The notes beneath the pieces are model-generated. The model did not search any database and was not told the origin of the DNA. It saw nothing but the letters and a program-made list of their open reading frames with translations. From NCBI RefSeq assembly GCF_013391805.1, contig NZ_CP058364.1, forward strand, positions 1,364,501 through 1,428,500: 64,000 bases of DNA, written 5' to 3'. The translations under genes and the position numbers were made by a program. The DNA comes from Galbibacter sp. BG1. GTDB lineage: Bacteria; Bacteroidota; Bacteroidia; Flavobacteriales; Flavobacteriaceae. This document shows, one piece after another, positions 1-26,804 of this stretch (position 1 is its first letter; each line of letters begins with the position of its first letter).

Positions 1-41
1 AAGTCGTTACTTTGTAAGTACCCAAATTAAAACATGAACTT

Positions 42-2231
42 ATGAATAGAACTTTACCCAAAAAATCTATTCGTCTTTGCCTGCTGTCGCTCTTTATGGG
101 CTCTGCAATGATGCAAGCGCAAGATTTAAAGAAACCCATCTTAGGGTTTTCTGATGCGTGTGCTTCCAAAGGCTTTAATAGTTTTTCCGTACAATTTAAG
201 TGGGATCCTACGCCAATCGTAGGATCCGACAACGACTTTATTCTTGAACTTTCCGACGCAAACGGCAGTTTTACTTCCCCTACAATGCTTGCAACCATTT
301 CTGACAAAAACACGACATTCGACTTCGACATTAATTTTAAAATGCCAGAAACCGTTCGCGGAGAGAATTACAAAGTACGAGTAAGAAGCACTAAGCCTGC
401 TAAAATAGGAAAAGAAAGCAATCCATTTGGAGCTTACTACCTTAATGTGGCTGAGCCCTTAGTAGTTAACAATTTTGAAGAAGCCTCGGTATGTGAGGCC
501 AATACGGTTTTCTTGGAAGTAGATAATTATCCAAACCAAGAGTCCTACAACTGGTATAAAGATATGGCGCTTATTCCTGGAGAAAATGGACCTTCAATAG
601 AAGTTTCTGAACCTGGAATTTATTTTGCTGAAATAGATTATGGTACTTATTGCTCTACTTCAACAGCCTCTAATTTAGTTGAAGTTTTTATTGAAAACTC
701 TGTGGGCGTTGAATTGGTAGGAGCAAAGAAGGTTTCTTTGTGCGAAGATCAAACATACACCCTAACCACCGATTTTGTAGACCCAACTGTAACCTATGCT
801 TGGTATAAGGATGGAGAATTGTTGGAAAGAAGCAATAGCAATTCCTTGGAAGTTAAAGGAAATAATCCCGGATTTGCCGGAGACTATTATGTGGTTGTTG
901 AAAGACCGGGAGGTTGTAACGAAAAAACATCCACCGTACAGATACAGGCCGGTGGTTTTGAAGCCTCGTTAGCCTCACAGAATGGAACTATTGTTTTTCC
1001 ACAACAACCTGTAAAATTACAAGCTACCACCAATGCTTCTGGAGCAACCTATAAATGGTTTAGAAACGGCACAGAACTATCTGGAGAAACTGCGAGCACT
1101 TTGGAGGTTAATACTACTGGAGACTATTATGTGGAGGTTTCTCAAACGGAGGGATGTAAAGCAAGCAGAACAACGGAGGCCATAACCATTACGGAGCCTG
1201 CAGAATATGTTGCAGCCATCAAATTAGGTACATATACAGCATGCCAAAGTTCTTCGGCCACTTTGAGTCTTTCGAAAATAGAAACCAAAGATGCTGAGGG
1301 AGCGGCTTATGAGCTTCCAGAATCTTCTTTGGCGAACGCAACATACCAATGGGTATATAACCAGAAAGCAGTGGTTGGTGAAACCAATAAATCCTTAACG
1401 GTTGCGAAGGCTTCCCTCAACGGAACTTATGCCTTGCAGATAAAACTTGAAGGTGGAAAACAGGTTACCTCAAACGCAGTGGATGTTAAATTAGGACTTT
1501 CTGAAGTTCCTACTATTAGTGGTAACGGAACAGTAACTTGCGAAAACGGTAATAGTATAGAAATTGCTTCCAGCGTGAATACTTCAGAATATAAATATAC
1601 GTGGTACAGAAATGGAGTGGCGCTTACAGAAAGCACACCGAAATTCACTACCAACCTTTCAGGAAAGTATCAATTGCAGATCGAAGCTTACGGCTGTTCT
1701 GCAAAATCAAACGAATTTGTTATCAATGAATTCGATACATCTATAGTAACTCTTAATGTTTCAGAAATTGTATCGATTCCAGAAGGAGAGAGTAAAGAAG
1801 TAATTGCAACAGGAGGAGATAGCTACCAATGGTTCGATGCAGAAAACGAATTAATAAGCAACGCTTCTTCAGTAACACTTTCCGAAGAAGGCGAATATAC
1901 GTTGTTGGCTGCTGTTGGAGACTGTCAAGTTGCTAAAAAAGTAACCGTAACCTACGTATTGAGTTATGTGGTACCAAATATTGTAACACCAAATGGAGAT
2001 GGGTTTAACGATCTTTGGGTAATCCCTAATTCTTATGCTTATAAACAAGATATTACTGTAAATATTTACGAACAATCTGGAGCTACCGTTTTTACGGCCA
2101 CAGGATATCAAAACAATTGGCCAGAATCTTCAAGCATTACAAGATCTGGTAGCAGACCACCAATTTACTATTACCAAATTACTAAAGGAAAAGAAACATT
2201 AAAACAAGGAACGATAACTGTTATTAAATAA
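42..2231 (+). CDS. Secreted multi-Ig-like protein with T9SS gliding-type C-terminal domain
   Basis: A 729-residue exported surface protein. Residues 1-27 form a signal peptide ending in MQAQ. The body carries about six Ig-like units, each marked by a Y-x-W-Y/F core (YNWYKD, YAWYKDG, YKWFRNG, YQWVYNQ, YTWYRNG, YQWFD) with paired cysteines. Residues ~645-729 match the gliding motility-associated C-terminal domain (TIGR04131/CHU_C type; VTPNGDGFNDLW), the type B T9SS signal. Its stop overlaps the start of the PorP/SprF-like gene by one base (TAATG), so the two are translationally coupled and probably form a secreted protein/partner pair. Ligand unknown; adhesion is inferred from the Ig repeats. 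Confidence 0.88.
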   Translation: MNRTLPKKSIRLCLLSLFMGSAMMQAQDLKKPILGFSDACASKGFNSFSVQFKWDPTPIVGSDNDFILELSDANGSFTSPTMLATISDKNTTFDFDINFKMPETVRGENYKVRVRSTKPAKIGKESNPFGAYYLNVAEPLVVNNFEEASVCEANTVFLEVDNYPNQESYNWYKDMALIPGENGPSIEVSEPGIYFAEIDYGTYCSTSTASNLVEVFIENSVGVELVGAKKVSLCEDQTYTLTTDFVDPTVTYAWYKDGELLERSNSNSLEVKGNNPGFAGDYYVVVERPGGCNEKTSTVQIQAGGFEASLASQNGTIVFPQQPVKLQATTNASGATYKWFRNGTELSGETASTLEVNTTGDYYVEVSQTEGCKASRTTEAITITEPAEYVAAIKLGTYTACQSSSATLSLSKIETKDAEGAAYELPESSLANATYQWVYNQKAVVGETNKSLTVAKASLNGTYALQIKLEGGKQVTSNAVDVKLGLSEVPTISGNGTVTCENGNSIEIASSVNTSEYKYTWYRNGVALTESTPKFTTNLSGKYQLQIEAYGCSAKSNEFVINEFDTSIVTLNVSEIVSIPEGESKEVIATGGDSYQWFDAENELISNASSVTLSEEGEYTLLAAVGDCQVAKKVTVTYVLSYVVPNIVTPNGDGFNDLWVIPNSYAYKQDITVNIYEQSGATVFTATGYQNNWPESSSITRSGSRPPIYYYQITKGKETLKQGTITVIK

Positions 2232-7400: not shown

Positions 7401-10400
7401 AATGCTATTTTTGAGATTCCTGCAGGTCAAGAGGGTCAATACGAATTTGTAGTGGTCGACGCTGGAAATTGTGTTGCATATTCAAATCGCGTGGAAGTGA
7501 AGGTTGAACCTGCTCCAATATTCAACATTACAAAAACAAACGAAACTTGTTTTGAGGAAAAAAATGGAACCATTTCCGTTAATGTAACCAACAATAACGG
7601 TTATAATATGACCTTTAGTAGGGATAGCATCAACTTTAATGCAAACCCTAAATTTTTTAATTTAGAGCCTGGAGATTATGAAATCGTAGTGCGGGCTACC
7701 AAAGGCGTTTCATCTTGTGATTTTGTTCAAAATATCGAAATTTTACCAGCGACCCAAATTTCTTCGAGTGCAACACGAACAAAAAATTATACTTGTCTTG
7801 AAGATGGAGAAATTACTTTTACCGCTGGAACTGGTGGTTCAGGAAATTTTGAATACAGTATTGATGGAGCAACTTGGCAAAGTGGATTGGTGTTTGGGAG
7901 CTTGGAAGACGGCACATACACACCAAGATACCGGGATTTATCAAATCCTACATGTGTTAGGGATCTACCAAATATTGTAATAGATCCATTACCTGCGAAA
8001 CCAACTTTAACACGAACAGTCGACTACAATTGTGATGGAACAGCTGATATTACTGTATTTCCTAACGACACTTCCTACCAATATCGTTTGGAGAATGCTT
8101 CAGGTTCGGTAATTAGAGCTTATCAAACATCTAATGTTTTTCAAAATATAGCTGTAGGAAACTATATTATAAGGGTTAATTATGGTAGTGATTGTACAGT
8201 TACTAGAGGAGTTTCAGTACAAACTGGAAATACCTTTAGCGCTACGCGAACTAATCTCACGAATCCACAATGTTTTGGAGGAACGGGCTCCATAACATTC
8301 CAAGTTCAAAACTTTAATACTACTACCGGTTACAACTATACCGTAGATGGGGGAGCACCACAAACCTCTACCTCAGCTACAGAAACGGTTACAAGTTTGA
8401 CTGCCGGTGCACATACCATAATCATAACCGATCCTAATAATGCATCTTGTACGGCAAACATTACAGGAACGATTGCAGTTCCAAGTCAAGTAAGCGTTAC
8501 GGGATCAATCACTAGCGACTTAACATGTAATAATACCGGAGCTACCATTCGGGCAACAGCTTCGGGCGGAACACCAGGATACACTTACCAATTGGAAGAT
8601 AATGCATCGCCGACACCAACTGTTGTTAGACCTTTTCCAAATCCAACTGGAAGAAACTTCAATAATGTTCCAGCTGGCACCTATTATATTAGAGTAAGGG
8701 ACGCCAATGGTTGCGAGGCTAGAAGTACGAATCCAATTGTGGTGGAAGATCCAATAGCCATTGAGTTTGAATCTATCCCAACTGCTTGTTATGTAGGCGG
8801 AAGCAATGGTAGTATTACTATTAATATTAATCCAAATGGAAACGGAAGTGTTGGAAACGGGAATCTTCAAGTAAGAATTAATGGAGGTCCGTTTGTAAAT
8901 CTTAACAATCCACCATTCCAACATGTATTTAATAATTTGTCTTCTGGAGATTATGACATCCGAATCAAGGACGGTTTCGGTTGTTTTGCAGAAGAGCTCG
9001 ATGTTACAATACAACCGAAATTGATCTCCACAGCAGTTTTAGATAATGATTTTCTCTGTGGAACAGATGCACAGGTTACTATAAATACCACGGGAGGTAA
9101 TGGATCTTTTACCTATGCTTGGGCGAATACCGAAACCGGGCCCTTCACCAACACAACTGGGTTCTCTGGCAATGTGTTTAATACCAATATCGCTGGGACT
9201 TATTATTTCGAAGTTACCGACGCCGAAAACTGTACGGATATTGCTGGTCCTATCGAAATAACGCCTGCAACACCGCCTTCATTTACGGTAACGCCAACAG
9301 ATATTACTTGTAATGGAGATAGTACTGGAGTTCTAGATGTAGATATTGATACTAATGTTGGGGTAGGTCCTTACACTATTGCAGTATTGAATACAGATAC
9401 TAGTACAAGTTATGGTAGGCAAACCACAAATTTACCTGCTGGTAATTATGAGATAACAGTAACAGATTCTAAGAATTGTACGAATACTGAAACTGCAACT
9501 ATAATTGAGCCCAGTCCAATAATGGGGAATTTATCTAAAACAGATATCAGTTGCTCAGGGGATCCAACAATTGGTTCAATTTTAGGTACAATAACCATCG
9601 ATGCCTCCGGAGGAACATCGCCATACGAATATTTTATCAGAAGAAGTGACTACAGCTACACCGATAGTTATGATACAGCAGCTCCAAACTCAAATGATCA
9701 TACTTTTGATGATTTAGATTTCGGTGAATATGTTATCAGAATTGTAGATGCAAATGGCTGTGAAATAATTGAAAATATTACTATAGCAACTGCGCCAAGT
9801 GTTATTTTAACCACTTCTGGTGCGGCAGGATGTACACTCGGTAGTGGAACAATGATGGTTGATGCAGATACTGCAGATCCTATGACGCCTTTAACTTCTG
9901 GAGATTTTTACTTCTCTATTTATCCTGCATTGAATGATTTTGATCCTGCTCCTTTAGCTTCTAACCCAGGTTGGTTTCAAGCTGACACTGATACAGGTAA
10001 AGGATTTAATACTGCCTATGAATTCACTGGCTTAAATCCTGGAGTAACGTATCAATTTATAGTTTACGACCGAAATACGAATTGTTCTTTCGTTCAAACA
10101 ACTACAACTCCAGTAGAAACTACTTCTACTATGGAAGCTACTTTGGATCCCTCTTCTTCGGTTACATGTAATGGATTTGATAATGGATCGATCACATTTA
10201 CTTTAAATGATCCAGGTGATATTGCTAATAGTATACCTCCTGCCGGAGCAACTTCAGCAGACTATGAAGTATATACTGCGAACGGAGATACTGGAACAGG
10301 GATAACAGGTAATGCCCTGGTAAATACAGCAACCACGGCCTCAGGTTTAAGTCCGGGAGAATATTACATTCTTTTTACTGAGGTTGGAGGAACGAATAAT

Positions 10401-19491: not shown

Positions 19492-20613
19492 TTATTTGTC
19501 TTGTTTCTTTTTGCTTCTATTTCTCCATATTATAAAGCCTGTTACAGGTAAAGAGGCACCAAAAAGACCTACGCAAACGGCCAAGATTTGTGTTGGTAAA
19601 CCACCCACCGTACCCATATGAATATCTAAACTTCCTTCTAAAATATCTTGATTTTTTTCAAATTCGGCTACTAAGGGAGTATCCAGTTGTCTTCCTGTAT
19701 AGCGGTTCAAAATTTGGTTATCGCCATAAAGATGAAGAAATCTATCATCGGTATCCAGTAAAATAAACTGCGAGTTAATAGCGTTGGGCTGTATGGCCAT
19801 AAGGGTAAGCTTATAGTTTTCGGGATACGATTTTTCAAACTCCTCGAATATAAATTGTAAACTTTTATAGCTTTTGTTGCTTGGTTGAGAATCGGCCATT
19901 GGTGGGTTTTTACCTACGAGTTCCGGGGAACCCCCAAAGGCGGCCACTACAGGTTTTTCCACCCATTCGAAAGACATTACAAGACCAGTAATTAAACTTA
20001 TTAAAATCAACCAACATGCGTAAAAACCATAAACACGATGAAAATCGTGATTCATTCTTTTTTTGGAAGCCGGATATTTTGGTTTAAAGGCGGTACGCGC
20101 TTGGTTTTTACTTCTTGGCCACCATAAGATGAGGCCAAGAATTAATTCAATAAAAAAAATAAGTGAGGCAACCCTAATAATCCAAAGTCCGAAATTACCC
20201 AATAGAAGTTGGGAATGAAAGTGAGCCACTAAAAAGAAGAAATTTGCAGAGGTAACATCTTCCCCAATTATTTTACCGGTATAAGGATTGATAAAGGTTA
20301 TTTTTAAGGTGGGCATATCGCTTCCCTCCTTAGGGATACCGCTTACTACATCGAAGGAGCGTTGCGGGTTGTTGTAGGTGTTTATCCAGAAATATTGTTC
20401 GGTGGGGTATTTAGCTTTAAAAGTATTTACTAGGGAGTCTACAGGCATTCTATTTCCTTCCGGTTTTACCGTTAAATGCTCTTTATTATAGGAATGCATG
20501 ATTTCTTCAGCAAAAACAAACATGGCACCAGAAAGGCACAATAAACATACAATAAGCCCAGATGACAAACCTATCCAAAGATGTATTTTTCTAATAGTTT
20601 TTTTATAGGACAT
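19492..20613 (-). CDS. PepSY-associated TM helix protein (iron/siderophore-linked)
   Basis: 373 residues of the PepSY_TM family. Four membrane helices are visible (~12-38, ~135-165, ~198-220, ~340-362) with the family start RKIHLWIGLSSG, a HFHSQLLLG motif, a D-x-H-R-V-Y-G motif and a late GSLDIHMGTVGG. Conserved histidines in the helices suggest haem or metal-linked electron transfer. Family members commonly accompany TonB siderophore receptors and are thought to reduce ferric-siderophores in the inner membrane; that reaction is inferred here. Last gene of a three-gene operon with the DUF4374 lipoprotein and the receptor. Confidence 0.85.
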   Translation of the reverse strand: MSYKKTIRKIHLWIGLSSGLIVCLLCLSGAMFVFAEEIMHSYNKEHLTVKPEGNRMPVDSLVNTFKAKYPTEQYFWINTYNNPQRSFDVVSGIPKEGSDMPTLKITFINPYTGKIIGEDVTSANFFFLVAHFHSQLLLGNFGLWIIRVASLIFFIELILGLILWWPRSKNQARTAFKPKYPASKKRMNHDFHRVYGFYACWLILISLITGLVMSFEWVEKPVVAAFGGSPELVGKNPPMADSQPSNKSYKSLQFIFEEFEKSYPENYKLTLMAIQPNAINSQFILLDTDDRFLHLYGDNQILNRYTGRQLDTPLVAEFEKNQDILEGSLDIHMGTVGGLPTQILAVCVGLFGASLPVTGFIIWRNRSKKKQDK

Positions 20614-20708
20614 GAAAATGTGTTTCTAAAAAATAAAATTGTATTCAAGAGATCCCGTAAACAAGGGAAAAGCGGAATCACATTTCTTTGATTCCGCTTC
20701 CCTAATTA

Positions 20709-21935
20709 TTAAAGCTTAAAAAGCGATTGTACCACTCCGCTATTTAAGTATAAGCGCTCGGTTACTTTATCGCCATCGTAACTGTAATATCCAGAGCCTT
20801 CACTATTGCTATATGGAATCCAAATTAGGTTGTCTTCTACAAAAGGCGCGTTAATAGATGCAAAATCGTTAATAGGGGCTCCTTCAATTTTAGTGGCAAC
20901 CTTGGTATCTATATCAATTTTGTGCAATACCATATTTTCTTCTACAAAATTGCTGTAATTCGGCGTAAAAGGCGTCGCTTTTATATACGTTATTAAGTCG
21001 TTGCCAATGCGAGAGGCACCACCCAAGAACCATTTAATTCCAGGTTCACTCACATAATCGTCGATAGCGATCTCGAAAGAGGTATCAAATTCATCTTCTC
21101 CCTTATTAATCCTTAAAATCTTTCCATTCCTATCGGCATTCAGCATATTCCCCATGGTATTTATGTAGAGGTCGCCTTCAGCATCGATTTGATAATCGTT
21201 AAGGTTGTCTGTGTAATAAGATATTTCTTGAGCTCCCTCGTAGGTAACTGTTTTTAAATATTCTTCGCTATCTATATCGATTACGGCCACAAAAACAGCG
21301 TCGTAAGCGCTAGAACCTAGTCCGTTCTCATCTTTATCATACTGAATATCGGCATAAAGCTTACCGTCCTTATTAATAAGCATACGCTGACCTATTTTTT
21401 CCAAAACGATGTTCTCATTTTCATCTTTTTTAGAAACCATGCTTAAATCTATTTCTCCGATACGCGTCATTGTAGAAGGATCAAACTTTTGAAGCTTTAG
21501 GTTTCCTCTTCCGCCGTCGAAATAATAACCTAGATTGTCATCGATTATTAAATAGTTGGTACTGTAATCTTCCCCGCTACTTACAATAAATCCGTCTGAA
21601 ACCAATTTGCCTTCTTCGCTAACATTGTATTTCTGAATTCCGTTTTGTCCTATGGCATTGTAGCCCATAAATACAGAACCTTTATAAGACTTGGCACCGT
21701 TTCGGGAAGCAGCAAGTTGCGTTGCATTATCGACTGCGGTAATATCAAACGCATCTTCTGGAAGGGATTCCATAGGTGCTACAAAACCACTTGTAGATTG
21801 CCCATCGGTCATTACCACAATTCCAAACTCTGCATCGTAGGTTTCGGTCGGGACTTTGGAGTTGCCGTCATCGCTGCTACATCCTATAGCTAGGGTCCCC
21901 GCTAAACTCAAAAAGAAAAAGTGTAGTTTTTTCAT
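20709..21935 (-). CDS. DUF4374-family lipoprotein
   Basis: 408 residues. Lipobox at the N-terminus (LAIGC, lipid on Cys19) followed by SSDDG, as usual for outer-membrane lipoproteins of Bacteroidota. The rest reads as a beta-propeller-like repeat of short strands with Asp-rich turns, ending in a Y-S-Y-D-G-D motif. DUF4374 genes typically sit between a TonB receptor and a PepSY gene, exactly as here (7 bases after the receptor stop, 95 bases before the PepSY start). Probably a surface or periplasmic binding component of siderophore uptake; the substrate is unknown. Confidence 0.82.
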   Translation of the reverse strand: MKKLHFFFLSLAGTLAIGCSSDDGNSKVPTETYDAEFGIVVMTDGQSTSGFVAPMESLPEDAFDITAVDNATQLAASRNGAKSYKGSVFMGYNAIGQNGIQKYNVSEEGKLVSDGFIVSSGEDYSTNYLIIDDNLGYYFDGGRGNLKLQKFDPSTMTRIGEIDLSMVSKKDENENIVLEKIGQRMLINKDGKLYADIQYDKDENGLGSSAYDAVFVAVIDIDSEEYLKTVTYEGAQEISYYTDNLNDYQIDAEGDLYINTMGNMLNADRNGKILRINKGEDEFDTSFEIAIDDYVSEPGIKWFLGGASRIGNDLITYIKATPFTPNYSNFVEENMVLHKIDIDTKVATKIEGAPINDFASINAPFVEDNLIWIPYSNSEGSGYYSYDGDKVTERLYLNSGVVQSLFKL

Positions 21936-21942
21936 AGTTCAA

Positions 21943-24312
21943 TTAATTTATAGTATATCTAATTTTAAAATTTATATTTCTTCCAGGTTTTTGTACCCGG
22001 AAATTATCGAATTGATCCTCGTTTAAAATATTATTGACCGCCATGCTTAGCCATAAAGGTTGGTTGTTTACTTTATAAGATATCCCCAAATCCCAGACGT
22101 ATTGCGTAGGGATTAGGAACTCATCGGCGTCTACGTCGGGTTTTTCAAAAATGTTATCCGATTCTAAATCCTTCGGAATGGAAAATCTGTAATAAAAATG
22201 GGTGTAACCAAAATTGGTGTATAGGTCGAAACGGTCGTTGGTGGCAAACGGATTGAAAATTTTATAATCTATGTTGAGGTTGGCGAATAAATAGGGAACA
22301 TTGGGCACCCTTGACCCCTCATTGAGTTCTTCTTGAGGATTATCGACGTCCACACGTCTTAAATCCTGAAAGGTCGCGTTTAAATTGGTAGTCAGGTTTT
22401 TATGCAACGTTTTTTTGATCCCGGCTTCTATTCCCATAACCCGAACATTGGACCAATTATCGTAAGTAGCGTATGGAATATTTGGAATGAGTTGAACCAA
22501 GTTTTTTTGATCCCTAAAAAATACATTGGTATCCAACCACCAAGATTTTTGTTTATCCAAAGGCAAATTAGCAGCAAGGTTCACATTATGGCTCCTTTCT
22601 GGAACAAGATTTGGGTTTCCAACGATAAACAAACCATCCCCAAAATACTCTTCGGCATCTGGAATACGGGTGGCATATTCATAGGTAAACCTTAAAAATC
22701 CTTTATTCTCCAGATTGTAGCGAACGGAATTGGCAATTCCATAATTATTTTGGGATTCTTCAGGGACATCTCCTTCATAGGCAAAATTTAAATCCACAGC
22801 TTGCGTAAGAATGCCAAATCTTTTTACTGTAAACTCATTTATAATTTTGTTATTCCACAGGGAACTGCGAATGCCAAGACCAGTAACATTTTTTACATAT
22901 TTAGCTTCAATGGTAAGCGGGTCGATATCGGTATTGGCAATTTTAATAGCAAATGGATCGCTACCCAAGCGAGTTTGTCTTGAATAAACGTGATTTAACA
23001 ATAGTTCGTGCTCATCGTTGAGTTTGTAACCAAAATATGCCCTTACCAAATTGTTTGTAAAAGTTATATTTTGCAGAGATTTGGTAGCAGAAAGTTCACC
23101 TCCGTTTTCTTCCCTGCGTTCTACTTCGCCATACCAATTGTATCTGTTGGCGGTGGTATCTATTGTTTTTGTTTTCAGCTCGCCATAAACGGCAAAAACA
23201 TCTGCACTAAAGCGATCGAACTGCTTTTGGTAGCGCATGGTAAGTCCAAAATTACTTTCTTCAAAATTTGCTTCTCCGTATGGCTCGGTTTGATAAATAT
23301 CGTTTTGAAGTTCTTTATCATAATCAAAGTAATTGAAACCTATCTCCCATCGGTCTGCAAAACTTGTTTCATGCAAATCTACTTTTACTTCAGAATAAAA
23401 GGGAGCTACCCCATCGTGGAAACGTCTAACATTGGCCTCTTCTTCACGGGCTGTTTCTGGGTCGGGTACAAGCACGTCAATCTTATAATCGTTGTCGGAA
23501 CTGATGTAATAACTGGACAAGCTTACGCCAAATTTAGAATTTGGAATGGCATAATATCCATTTAAGTTAAATTGTTGGGAATTAAAAGAGCCGTATTGGT
23601 AAGAAGCGTCAAGATAATTGCTCAGCCTTTGTTTGGTTACAAAATTCACACCACCACCCAAAGCATCCGAGCCCAAGGAGGCCGGTAAAACACCTTTGTA
23701 AACATCGATACGCTCTAGGGCGTCTACAGGAAGTAAACTAAAATTAAAGGCCCTTCCAAGATAATCTAAAGGAACCCCATCCTTAAAAAAACGGATTGCT
23801 TTTCCTTGTAACCCATTTATATTAATTTCGGTATTGCTTCCTACACCAGCATTCTGGCGTACTTTAAGGCCTGAGGTTTGATTGATTAACTGCGGAACGG
23901 AAATCGACTTTATCTTGGCTGAACTTAGATCTAGCACTTCTACCGCTTGCGCTTGAGCTGCGCTTTTCGCAGCGTCGGTTTGCACGCTCACCTCTTCCAG
24001 CTCGATAGAAGATTCTTCAATGCTTACTTGAAGGAAAGGAGCATCTTCCTTGCTAAAATCTACCAGGATAATTCTGTCTTTATATCCAATACCGGTAAAC
24101 GAAAGTTTTATCCTTTTCTTCTGAATATTCTGAATTGAAAATACACCATTGGAATCGGTAGAAGTTCCTTTATTGGTGTTTTGTATCATCACATTGATAC
24201 CGGCTAAAGGCTCTCCAGATGTAGCGGTAACTACTCCAGAAATTTCGAATCGCTCTTGCGAAAAAGAGGTTGAAAGCTTAAAGATCAATAAGATAGTAAC
24301 GAACCGAAACAT
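21943..24312 (-). CDS. TonB-dependent receptor, siderophore type
   Basis: 789 residues. Signal peptide 1-19 (TSFSQ), carboxypeptidase-regulatory-like domain ~22-105 (ISGVVTATSGEPLAGINV), plug ~115-230 (LINQTSGLKVRQNAGVG, DALERIDVYKGVLP, LGGGVNFVTK), then a 22-strand barrel ending NFKIRYTIN. First gene of a receptor-DUF4374-PepSY operon. Upstream is a perfect 13-bp inverted repeat resembling an iron-responsive operator. Together these point to ferric-siderophore or haem uptake rather than polysaccharide import (no SusD partner). The exact ligand cannot be read from the sequence. Confidence 0.88.
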   Translation of the reverse strand: MFRFVTILLIFKLSTSFSQERFEISGVVTATSGEPLAGINVMIQNTNKGTSTDSNGVFSIQNIQKKRIKLSFTGIGYKDRIILVDFSKEDAPFLQVSIEESSIELEEVSVQTDAAKSAAQAQAVEVLDLSSAKIKSISVPQLINQTSGLKVRQNAGVGSNTEININGLQGKAIRFFKDGVPLDYLGRAFNFSLLPVDALERIDVYKGVLPASLGSDALGGGVNFVTKQRLSNYLDASYQYGSFNSQQFNLNGYYAIPNSKFGVSLSSYYISSDNDYKIDVLVPDPETAREEEANVRRFHDGVAPFYSEVKVDLHETSFADRWEIGFNYFDYDKELQNDIYQTEPYGEANFEESNFGLTMRYQKQFDRFSADVFAVYGELKTKTIDTTANRYNWYGEVERREENGGELSATKSLQNITFTNNLVRAYFGYKLNDEHELLLNHVYSRQTRLGSDPFAIKIANTDIDPLTIEAKYVKNVTGLGIRSSLWNNKIINEFTVKRFGILTQAVDLNFAYEGDVPEESQNNYGIANSVRYNLENKGFLRFTYEYATRIPDAEEYFGDGLFIVGNPNLVPERSHNVNLAANLPLDKQKSWWLDTNVFFRDQKNLVQLIPNIPYATYDNWSNVRVMGIEAGIKKTLHKNLTTNLNATFQDLRRVDVDNPQEELNEGSRVPNVPYLFANLNIDYKIFNPFATNDRFDLYTNFGYTHFYYRFSIPKDLESDNIFEKPDVDADEFLIPTQYVWDLGISYKVNNQPLWLSMAVNNILNEDQFDNFRVQKPGRNINFKIRYTIN

Positions 24313-24566: not shown

Positions 24567-25031
24567 ATGGAAACAGTAAAAAAATTTCGTAATGGAACCA
24601 TTAGAATGTCCATTCCGGCAAAAGTAGCTTACAACGGTAAAGCCTTTAAAGAAAGTATTTATCAATTATTGGATGAATTAGGTTGCCCTAAATGTTTTTC
24701 TGGAGTAGATTGTTATATCGATACATTCCGGGATTATATCTACGACCCAGAGAAAGCGGTTCTAAATCCAGTCGTGAAAGATAGAGTTGGATTTAAGGCC
24801 AATTGGAATAGTGATAAATTTTCGGATGGAACCCCAGTACCATTACCTTTCAACCAGTTAGCTAGCAATACGCTTACAGTAGCTTCATCTCCAAAATTAA
24901 CCGGAAGTATAGATAAAGTGGATAGTTTGATAGACAAGGTATTTGAAGAAATTGGTTGCCGAGCTTGTTGCTCTGGACACGACGTTTTCTTTAAAAATGT
25001 AATAGATACTCTAAGAATACCAAATTTATGA
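24567..25031 (+). CDS. Small protein with duplicated C-x2-C-x-SG-x-D motif; candidate MNIO substrate or partner
   Basis: 154 residues from ATG 24567 (METVKKFRNG); an upstream in-frame ATG at 24525 would only add a non-conserved-looking tail. No signal peptide or membrane helix. Two similar units can be aligned: ~20-60 with LGCPKCFSGVD (Cys40, Cys43, Cys49) and ~108-152 with IGCRACCSGHD (Cys131, Cys134, Cys135), each preceded by an amphipathic helix (SIYQLLDELG, SLIDKVFEEIG). Its stop overlaps the MNIO start (ATGA), so the two are made together. Known: MNIO enzymes modify cysteines of short precursor peptides. Inferred: this is the substrate, or a cysteine-bearing partner. No family recognised. 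Confidence 0.7.
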   Translation: METVKKFRNGTIRMSIPAKVAYNGKAFKESIYQLLDELGCPKCFSGVDCYIDTFRDYIYDPEKAVLNPVVKDRVGFKANWNSDKFSDGTPVPLPFNQLASNTLTVASSPKLTGSIDKVDSLIDKVFEEIGCRACCSGHDVFFKNVIDTLRIPNL

Positions 25032-26500
25032 TCTCTAAAGCCGAGAATAAATTTCAATGCCTACCCGAATTGGGGGTGGGCATTATTTATTCCCAAAAAA
25101 TCAAAGAAATAAATTTTCCTAAGGGATTATTGGATACTTTAGAGATTGAACCCCAGACACTTTGTATTAGAGACAAGAACGATAATTTGATTTTGCCAAA
25201 AAAGGTTTTTAAAGACCTCAATAATTTGCCATACAACAAGCTGGTGCACAGTATAGGAGCTCCGGTTGGAGGGTCCGTAAAACCCACAGAGGAACAACTA
25301 AAGCTTATCGATTATTGCAGTCGATTATTTAACAGTCCATGGATTACAGAACACCTTAGTTTTAATGCCACTACTTCTTTCAATACTGGGTTTTTTCTTC
25401 CACCATGCCAAACTGAAGAAGGATTACAAGTTGCAATTGAAAATATTCAAATATTGCAATCCAAATTAAAAAAACCTATTGCCATAGAAACAGGCGTAAA
25501 TTATTTACGGTGCAATAATAAAGAAATTGAAGATGGTAATTTTGTTGCTGAGCTTTGCAAAGCTACAGATTGCGGAATTTTGCTTGACATACATAATCTG
25601 TTTGCCAATCAATTGAACGGAAGGCAATCCATTGAAACTTTTATAGGTCAAATCCCGAAAGACAACGTGGTGGAAATTCATATTGCTGGAGGTACAGAAT
25701 TGAATAACCTTTGGTTGGACTCTCATTCTGGGCCTATAGACCAACGGTTGCTGGATATTACCAAGGAGGTATTGCCAGAATTTAAAAACCTAAAAGCCGT
25801 TACCTATGAAGTTTTCGATTCTTATCTCCCAATAATTGGAGACAAAGTGGTAATAAAAGAATTGGAGAAGGTTAGAAATCTTTGGGAAAGCCGAAAGGTA
25901 AAGCCCATATCTGGAGCTAATACAGAAATGCCGAAGGAGGTGATCAATATTCAAAAATTTAATCAGAATTACTCGGTAAAAGAATGGGAGAATACATTGG
26001 CAAACCTAGCTATCGATCGAAGTTTTTCAGGAGGATTAAAAGGGATGGCGAAAAGTAACCCCGACCGTATTGCGATGTATCAAAGTTTAATAAAAGAATT
26101 TAGAGCTTCCATGATAGCAAGAATATACAAACTAACCGTTAGATACCTTATGCTGACTTTAGGGATGGATGCATTTTACGTAATTCTTCAAGATTTTTGG
26201 AGCAAAACCCCTCCAGAGCAATTGAGCTACAAAGAAGCCCAGAACTTTGCACAATATTTGGAAAATAAGGCCTACAAAATGCCATGGTTATACCGATTGC
26301 TACGATACGAAGTAGCCATACTAAATTCTATTTTGCGCCACACAACTGAGATCGTTTCCTTTGATGTAGATCCTATGCCAATGTTAAATGCTTTGCATGA
26401 AGGGAAATTGCCTGAGATGATTGGCAAATCTGGAGATTATGAAATTGAGATCACCCCAGATGCTCACGATACCGCTCAGTGGACGGCTATTTCTTCCTAA
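25028..26500 (+). CDS. MNIO (DUF692) iron-dependent RiPP enzyme fused to a BufC/DUF2063-like domain
   Basis: 490 residues. Residues ~10-290 match the multinuclear non-heme iron oxidase fold (BufB/TglH/MbnB type, TIM barrel) with expected metal-ligand positions: H74 (LVHSIGAP), E108-H109 (ITEHLSF), E154 (AIETGVNYL), D187/H189/N190 (LLDIHNLFANQLN), E216/H218 (VEIHIAGG), D231/H233 (LDSHSGPID), E261 (TYEVFDSY). Residues ~310-465 resemble the N-terminal HvfC/BufC (DUF2063) domain, normally a separate partner: R-I-A-M-Y-x-x-L, L-x-x-x-L-G-x-D-x-F, W-L-Y-R-L-L-R-Y-E. Upstream gene overlaps by four bases. MNIOs oxidise cysteines to thio-heterocycles. Fusion assignment of the C-terminal part is weaker than the enzyme call. 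Confidence 0.82.
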   Translation: MISKAENKFQCLPELGVGIIYSQKIKEINFPKGLLDTLEIEPQTLCIRDKNDNLILPKKVFKDLNNLPYNKLVHSIGAPVGGSVKPTEEQLKLIDYCSRLFNSPWITEHLSFNATTSFNTGFFLPPCQTEEGLQVAIENIQILQSKLKKPIAIETGVNYLRCNNKEIEDGNFVAELCKATDCGILLDIHNLFANQLNGRQSIETFIGQIPKDNVVEIHIAGGTELNNLWLDSHSGPIDQRLLDITKEVLPEFKNLKAVTYEVFDSYLPIIGDKVVIKELEKVRNLWESRKVKPISGANTEMPKEVINIQKFNQNYSVKEWENTLANLAIDRSFSGGLKGMAKSNPDRIAMYQSLIKEFRASMIARIYKLTVRYLMLTLGMDAFYVILQDFWSKTPPEQLSYKEAQNFAQYLENKAYKMPWLYRLLRYEVAILNSILRHTTEIVSFDVDPMPMLNALHEGKLPEMIGKSGDYEIEITPDAHDTAQWTAISS

Positions 26501-26507
26501 AAACAAA

Positions 26508-26535
26508 AAGAGTTTCAAAATAAATTGAAACTCTT
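26508..26535. terminator. Hairpin after the MNIO gene
   Basis: AAGAGTTTCA (26508-26517) and TGAAACTCTT (26526-26535) form a perfect 10-bp stem eight bases after the MNIO stop. The T-rich side is on the minus strand, so it may stop transcription in both directions imperfectly. The remaining ~230 bases before recA hold no other recognisable element except a weak promoter. Confidence 0.55.
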
Positions 26536-26766
26536 CCTGTCGCTAATTCGTTGTTATTAAATATTTAAACATATTCATCATTGCAAAATAACAACGAACT
26601 TAGCCACCCTCAAGCTTGCCATTGCATAATCTAGCAACGGTCAAGGATTTCGATTTAATTATTAGTATATAGACATTGCACTGCATTAAATCGGTTGATC
26701 TTTGTTACTAGATGTCATTTATTTAAAAAGGTTGCGTAGCAAATTGTATGATGCAAAAAGAAATAG

Positions 26767-26774
26767 TATTTTAG
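26767..26774 (+). promoter_or_regulatory. Probable recA -7 element
   Basis: TATTTTAG matches TAnnTTTG except at one position and lies 30 bases before the recA ATG. No SOS-like palindrome is evident between it and the gene. Confidence 0.3.
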
Positions 26775-26804
26775 CACGAATCATAATAAAAGCAAAGAGA
26801 AAAA

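Follow-up and report, generated by a model that had tools for sequence, protein, structure and literature searches.

Described MNIO systems and the gene pair

The subject of this description is a pair of overlapping genes in a 64,000-nucleotide stretch of the genome of Galbibacter sp. BG1 (contig NZ_CP058364.1). This whole stretch is termed the window, and coordinates are positions in it. A 154-aa protein with two cysteine motifs is followed by an MNIO enzyme with a fused C-terminal domain (CTD). The systems for comparison are adjamnio-IV, HvfABC oxazolin/bufferin, ChrH/DybH (chryseobasin), TglHI/MbnBC and MovX. Adjamnio-IV is represented in Table 2 of Antoine et al. 2025 (PMC12452194) by ten sequences of 119–146 aa with 5–6 cysteines and a CxxCC motif; according to that source they come from proteins without Sec signals, in the organisation 'adjamnio-IV - MNIO', without a partner gene. 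In HvfBC, by the available text of PMC13419390, enzyme and partner are two polypeptides; the partner, inferred to bind the substrate, is required both for activity and for the mixed-valent di-iron state. A man-made HvfB-HvfC fusion, with the domain order found here, surpasses the co-expressed proteins in activity. The same text describes MovX as a natural MNIO with a fused C-terminal RRE. ChrH is, in the available part of PMC12636315, a natural MNIO with an extra small bundle.

The pair is probably a minimal, self-contained two-gene modification system, in which an MNIO with a fused partner acts on C-x-x-C-x-S-G units. The small protein would be the substrate and its cysteines the modified residues. 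The support is in silico: the gene pair, the fusion, conserved ligand positions, co-occurrence, invariant cysteines, one-unit relatives, and joint presence or absence. The two overlapping reading frames (ATGA), with the 154-aa protein directly upstream, are as the initial annotation described them. Start of the small protein at METVKK is supported by alignment of homologs; a 168-aa alternative (start 24525) is unnecessary. The 3.7 Mb single-contig source genome has one PF05114 match, the enzyme of the window. The features are the following.

24567–25031, + strand: 154-aa protein with cysteine motifs, the putative substrate (open reading frame and translation; 17 two-unit proteins, the window's included, with six invariant Cys columns).
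25028–26500, + strand: MNIO-partner fusion enzyme, 490 aa (open reading frame and translation, Pfam).
25028–25031, + strand: ATGA stop/start overlap, presumed translational coupling (gaps of -4 to +18 nt in 20/20 loci).
24591–24749, + strand: unit 1 of the small protein, SIPAKVAYN...LLDELGCPKCFSGVDCYI (unit alignment).
24864–25013, + strand: unit 2 of the small protein, ...VFEEIGCRACCSGHDVFF (unit alignment).
24678–24710, + strand: motif LGCPKCFSGVD, residues 38–48, likely modification site 1 (sequence, Cys conservation, DNA motif match).
24951–24983, + strand: motif IGCRACCSGHD (CxxCC), residues 129–139, likely modification site 2 (sequence, Cys conservation).
25067–25903, + strand: MNIO (PF05114) TIM-barrel domain, residues ~14–292 (Pfam, AlphaFold2 model, TglH match, conservation).
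25928–26467, + strand: C-terminal DUF2063/HvfC-like partner domain, residues ~301–480 (weak Pfam and NCBIfam matches, model, profile comparison).
26489–26804, + strand: right-hand boundary of the gene pair (DNA alignment to the recA side of the pair-less congeners G256 and G030).

Pairing and conservation of the small protein

The fused MNIO lies directly downstream in 20/20 loci with a Cys-bearing unit (17 two-unit, 3 one-unit), at a gap of -4 to +18 nt. Kept in all of these, the pairing goes beyond chance. That an MNIO merely stands beside an unrelated conserved protein is hardly credible: the adjacency extends over several genera and genomic contexts, and the genes are present or absent as a pair. 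Wide occurrence of the small protein without an MNIO, named in the initial annotation as a refuting condition, did not emerge: no Cys-bearing unit protein was found without an MNIO. No further gene is common to all 20 loci (clustering, neighbouring open reading frames of at least 110 aa; contig ends limit L009 and L014).

Relatives were collected from the GTDB genome collection by a scan with two peptide patterns, which misses divergent relatives. It gave 15 relatives, labelled with genera of the Flavobacteriaceae or with the family, once with Bacteroidia; seven are Aquimarina. Together with the window and G198 these are the 17 two-unit proteins. The small protein is rare (3/397 genomes of the family, counting that of the window). 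No second case is present among the 92 genomes searched in the family of G656. In viral contigs 68 stretches fit a pattern, none of them a relative; 352 plasmid records match the enzyme, none covering 80% of it. Weak matches in G413, G463, G608 and G1030 are not unit proteins and are excluded from the 20 loci; that in G413 is presumably a DsbA-like CPFCYIG protein.

Both cysteines of LGCPKCFSGVD are invariant in 18/18 aligned proteins, and the three of IGCRACCSGHD in 17/17 two-unit proteins. Across all two-unit proteins six Cys columns never vary, against 36 invariant columns among the 126 ungapped ones overall; the sequences are related by descent, so this carries no statistical test. The DNA motif alone occurs three times in the window (1.0 expected), which is weak by itself. 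The duplication of the unit, as first annotated, is real, since homologs of 92, 82 and 72 aa (in G656, G490 and G1008) hold one unit alone. Their motifs are NCPACHSG, GCPTCYSG and GCPGCYSG. The two units of the window's protein share 22% identity over the whole unit. Given the single-unit homologs, the one-unit form is probably older and was doubled in the Flavobacteriaceae line.

Two unit paralogs lack cysteines: one in G490, upstream of the intact copy (L035:8339–8605, - strand), and one in G835 (L044:6234–6599, - strand). GYPDGYAGF and GYPNSYSEF replace the CxxC site. Homology is weak (E 0.0023 and 0.00034). The G835 genome, 99% complete, has no PF05114 match. As two cases the paralogs prove little; they would fit cysteines retained for the sake of the enzyme.

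Two CxxC pairs in one chain, a sequence conserved like that of an ordinary gene product and not short and variable like a core peptide, and neither leader nor protease in sight would suit a metal-binding or iron-delivery accessory, whose CxxC pairs bind Zn or Fe and possibly load the MNIO. Such an accessory is quite unlikely here, as the single-unit homologs hold one CxxC only and in 20/20 loci the protein precedes the MNIO, where a precursor would stand. The accessible parts of the literature examined describe no comparable MNIO accessory.

No Pfam, NCBIfam or PHROG family matches the small protein above noise. To that extent the statement that it belongs to no known family stands; it fails in that adjamnio-IV (PMC12452194, Table 2) fits. 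Identity of the two families, judged from the published description, is rated as probable. Like adjamnio-IV, the two-unit proteins have CxxCC (17/17), an MNIO as the next gene (17/17), no further common gene and no signal peptide recognised by eye. The cysteine number is six in the window's protein and in 16/17 two-unit proteins overall, within the published 5–6, and seven in L021. Length is within 119–146 aa in 15/17; the window's protein lies beyond it at 154 aa, the range being that of ten members and no rule. The rating is not higher because of L021 with its seven cysteines and the over-long protein of the window. The system, initially put forward as a candidate for an undescribed one, thus probably has its family on record, as a listed but unstudied group. 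A fused partner domain, the unit duplication and one-unit relatives are not mentioned for adjamnio-IV in the accessible parts of PMC12452194. A partner fusion would explain the missing partner gene of adjamnio-IV.

The fused enzyme and its likely chemistry

Enzyme residues 58–285 match PF05114 (MbnB_TglH_ChrH) with E 4.2e-42 (144.7 bits, cut-off 25), and 18/18 members of the fused family match the same model. H74, H109, E154, D187, H189, N190, H218, D231, H233 and E261 are identical in the 14 members compared. These are taken to be the iron-site positions, and an MNIO with all metal-ligand motifs had been annotated correctly. The AlphaFold2 model of the enzyme (16 sequences, best of five) has a mean pLDDT of 72.8 and a pTM of 0.68. 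Its best structural match is TglH (Foldseek E 1.6e-16); VIA-align to 8hi7_B gives Z 25.9 and rmsd 3.0 with 273 residues aligned, span 7..291. TglHI/MbnBC is thus similar in its closest solved fold (TglH, 8hi7/8hci) and in the LDxHN stretch, which reads LDLHN at this site of TglH; it differs in a separate partner and unrelated precursors (TglA with a C-terminal Cys; methanobactin for MbnBC). In the enzyme tree, which took in 14 of 20 fused sequences, these group together in a single clade (100/99 support) that excludes the ChrH-type enzymes and 16 other MNIOs. The window's enzyme groups with the Galbibacter enzyme among Flavobacteriaceae (97/92 support).

Positions 74, 109, 154, 187, 190, 218, 231, 233 and 261 are identical in 36/36 rows (14 fused, 6 ChrH-type, 16 other standalone MNIOs). 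Position 189 is His in all fused and ChrH-type enzymes (14/14 and 6/6) and Asn in 16/16 others (DxH vs DxN). The LLE[RW]D stretch of these 16 is absent from the fused family and from ChrH-type enzymes. The ChrH-type set consists of three enzymes above the ChrH cut-off and three assigned by precursor or tree. Among the 16, three stand beside EGKCG-repeat proteins (L051, L064, L065) and five beside standalone DUF2063-type partners (L037, L058–L061). Since the fused enzymes differ in DxH and in the lack of LLE[RW]D from MNIOs of which three are beside EGKCG-type precursors, and agree in both with ChrH, their reaction would be other than thiooxazole formation.

A bufferin/oxazolin reaction, which turns the target Cys into 5-thiooxazole and yields a copper-buffering product, is accordingly placed among the unlikely readings. 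The locus shares with HvfABC the MNIO catalytic domain, a CTD related to the DUF2063/RRE partner (of HvfC kind) and the order precursor - MNIO - partner, in which MNIO and partner are here a single protein. Despite the DxH signature, BufB (NF050167) scores highest among the named models, at 119.5 bits against 67 bits for ChrH (NF050165). The scores are far under the cut-offs of BufB (310) and of HvfB (NF003818, 84.3 bits, cut-off 360), and that of ChrH is 600. Unlike bufferins and oxazolins, the small protein shows no Sec signal peptide by eye; its Cys motif is unlike EGKCG, the enzyme has DxH in 14/14 members and no LLE[RW]D, the partner is fused, and conserved neighbours are absent.

DxH and the CPxCxSG motif perhaps point towards ChrH/TglH-like chemistry. 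A reaction of the ChrH/DybH type proper, which oxidises the two CPxC cysteines and closes a ring between them and the backbone, is somewhat less improbable than thiooxazole formation, yet still doubtful. In both systems the MNIO has a further domain at its C-terminus, an active-site DxH and no LLE[RW]D, a partner gene is not apparent, and the precursor or putative substrate has CPxC and then xxG. The motifs of the one-unit proteins resemble ChrA-type CPACGMG ends (five loci), a lead and not a test. DybH requires no separate partner, by the available part of PMC12636315. The enzymes, however, are in separate clades, the C-terminal domains are dissimilar by profile (that of ChrH type ~7.8 kDa), and the motif sits at the very C-terminal end of ChrA but in the interior of the small protein. 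Unit 2 reads C-[RLM]-A-C-C, without Pro, in 17/17 two-unit proteins, and unit 1 of L021 also lacks the Pro.

In the model the CTD consists of a helical bundle (303–437) and then a strand-helix-strand (441–475), the latter, at a guess, a short RRE remnant. Pfam DUF2063 (PF09836) is matched weakly by 12/18 members (best E 2.2e-4), and NCBIfam HvfC by 5/18 (best E 1.3e-5). By hhalign profile-profile comparison with five standalone DUF2063 partners the CTD gives E 1.7e-5, probability 78.6, over 85 columns; with ChrH C-termini the same method finds no similarity (E 0.55), and a CTD of ChrH type is therefore unsupported. From the weak DUF2063/HvfC matches and the profile match to standalone partners, with none to ChrH C-termini, the CTD is most likely a partner domain of DUF2063/HvfC type that has diverged and is joined to its enzyme. 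Partner homology by profile, as seen in the CTD, is the criterion for PME-type 2 in the accessible text of PMC12452194. The DUF2063 resemblance had been annotated at the outset and stands; the length of ~155 residues given with it does not, the domain being at ~301–480. The objection of an unrelated fold is not upheld at the level of sequence profiles.

Search of 395 genomes of the phylum with the CTD profile gives five matches: the fused enzymes of the window, G656 and G490, and proteins of G700 and G462. The G700 match is a standalone DUF2063 partner (E 0.0014; PF09836 68.4 bits). That in G462 is judged unrelated, is not a fused enzyme and is not counted. No PDB chain matches the CTD sequence profile at E up to 10. 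No partner protein is among the Foldseek and VIA-align matches listed, which cover almost only the MNIO domain and are uninformative on the CTD. MovX is alike in the natural fusion of a recognition domain to an MNIO; it differs, by description only, in its RRE, as the fused part here is mainly a DUF2063-like bundle. A natural fusion of MNIO-DUF2063 type was not noticed among titles and abstract openings, a coverage that leaves out most subscription journals.

For the two-gene modification system the following mechanism is proposed. The small protein would present two units of ~45 residues, each a recognition segment (SIPAKVAYN and helix) followed by a C-x-x-C-x-S-G-x-D site. The fused domain, by analogy with HvfBC, would hold the substrate, tune the iron site and present the units to the barrel in turn. 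The barrel would oxidise one or more of the site cysteines with O2. The product probably stays cytoplasmic, as neither a signal peptide (by eye) nor a common exporter or protease gene is seen; a modified metal- or redox-active protein is, as a guess, a better fit than a secreted peptide. With somewhat less than even confidence, a chemistry of its own is proposed: the natural fusion would modify a duplicated cytosolic protein site by site and give a modified working protein, not a released peptide, different from thiooxazole, oxazolone-thioamide, norcysteine and chryseobasin products.

Several points weigh against such a system. Cysteine modification is deduced from sequence and gene context, and the paired CxxC could be a metal knuckle. 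The small protein and its two-unit relatives (133–154 aa, conserved across both units) are longer than typical precursors of ribosomally synthesised and post-translationally modified peptides, and the small protein has no recognisable leader or cleavage site. The DUF2063 matches are below the gathering score (16.6–21.0 bits in three members, gathering score 27.2), with none in the window's enzyme or the three single-unit members. The remaining four enzyme models reach a mean pLDDT of only 53.5–56.7. A pseudo-complex prediction, for which the stop between the L010 genes, which lie in one frame, was read as Gly to give AlphaFold2 a single chain, leaves the small protein at a block-mean pLDDT of 22–41, with no docking readable. 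The G490 locus was first found via the CTD and is hence not independent of it; the unit search recovered it only once the profile included the unit of this locus itself.

Genomic setting and significance

Gene order in Galbibacter (L008) is UPF0176 - small protein - MNIO - recA, the last gene being presumably recA. In G256 and G030, of the genus of the window, UPF0176 and recA stand next to each other, and the interval between them matches neither gene of the pair; similarity to the window begins at 26489 in G256 and at 26743 in G030. Because both genes are present in Galbibacter and both missing from these genomes between the same genes, the pair appears to come and go as one block. The description as self-contained is upheld in silico: the loci have no other common gene of at least 110 aa, and two congeners lack both genes at this site.

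In the window the pair adjoins recA, but its left side is a TonB-receptor block. This lies divergent to the pair (19495–24312, - strand) and comprises a TonB-dependent receptor (21946–24312), a 408-aa lipoprotein-like gene without Pfam match and a PepSY_TM protein (19495–20613). The set is, as an assumption, reminiscent of metallophore uptake. The block is absent at this site in Galbibacter, G256 and G030, and no role is therefore claimed for it.

An upstream element, AAGGAAAAACMCCC, present in the window and, by eye, with a similar counterpart in Galbibacter, was rejected: 11 genome matches with at most one mismatch vs 6 for the reversed control are near chance. Folding of the 5' region gives z -0.62. 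Alignment of the upstream regions of 11 of the 20 loci shows no common site. In the Aquimarina loci L012, L015 and L016 a dyad, AACACCC ... GGGGTGTT or similar, is seen by eye at 7861–8000, upstream of the pair; none was noticed upstream of the small gene in other genera.

G490 (L060) and G1008 (L085) have, besides the fused single-unit system, a second, standalone MNIO. In G490 this enzyme is accompanied by a standalone DUF2063-type partner and preceded by a Cys-rich protein. In L058 and L060 (Bacteroidota) the gene just before a standalone MNIO-DUF2063 pair encodes a Cys-rich protein (192 and 199 aa) containing C-x3-N-x-C repeats; these are perhaps other long MNIO substrates.

MNIOs furnish cysteines with unusual groups, and what their partner proteins contribute is not yet settled. 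The natural enzyme-partner fusion parallels the artificial, more active one described in the available text of PMC13419390. The system is compact, with one candidate substrate gene beside the fusion enzyme and no other common factor seen. One-unit, two-unit and Cys-less relatives form a built-in series for mapping the important residues.

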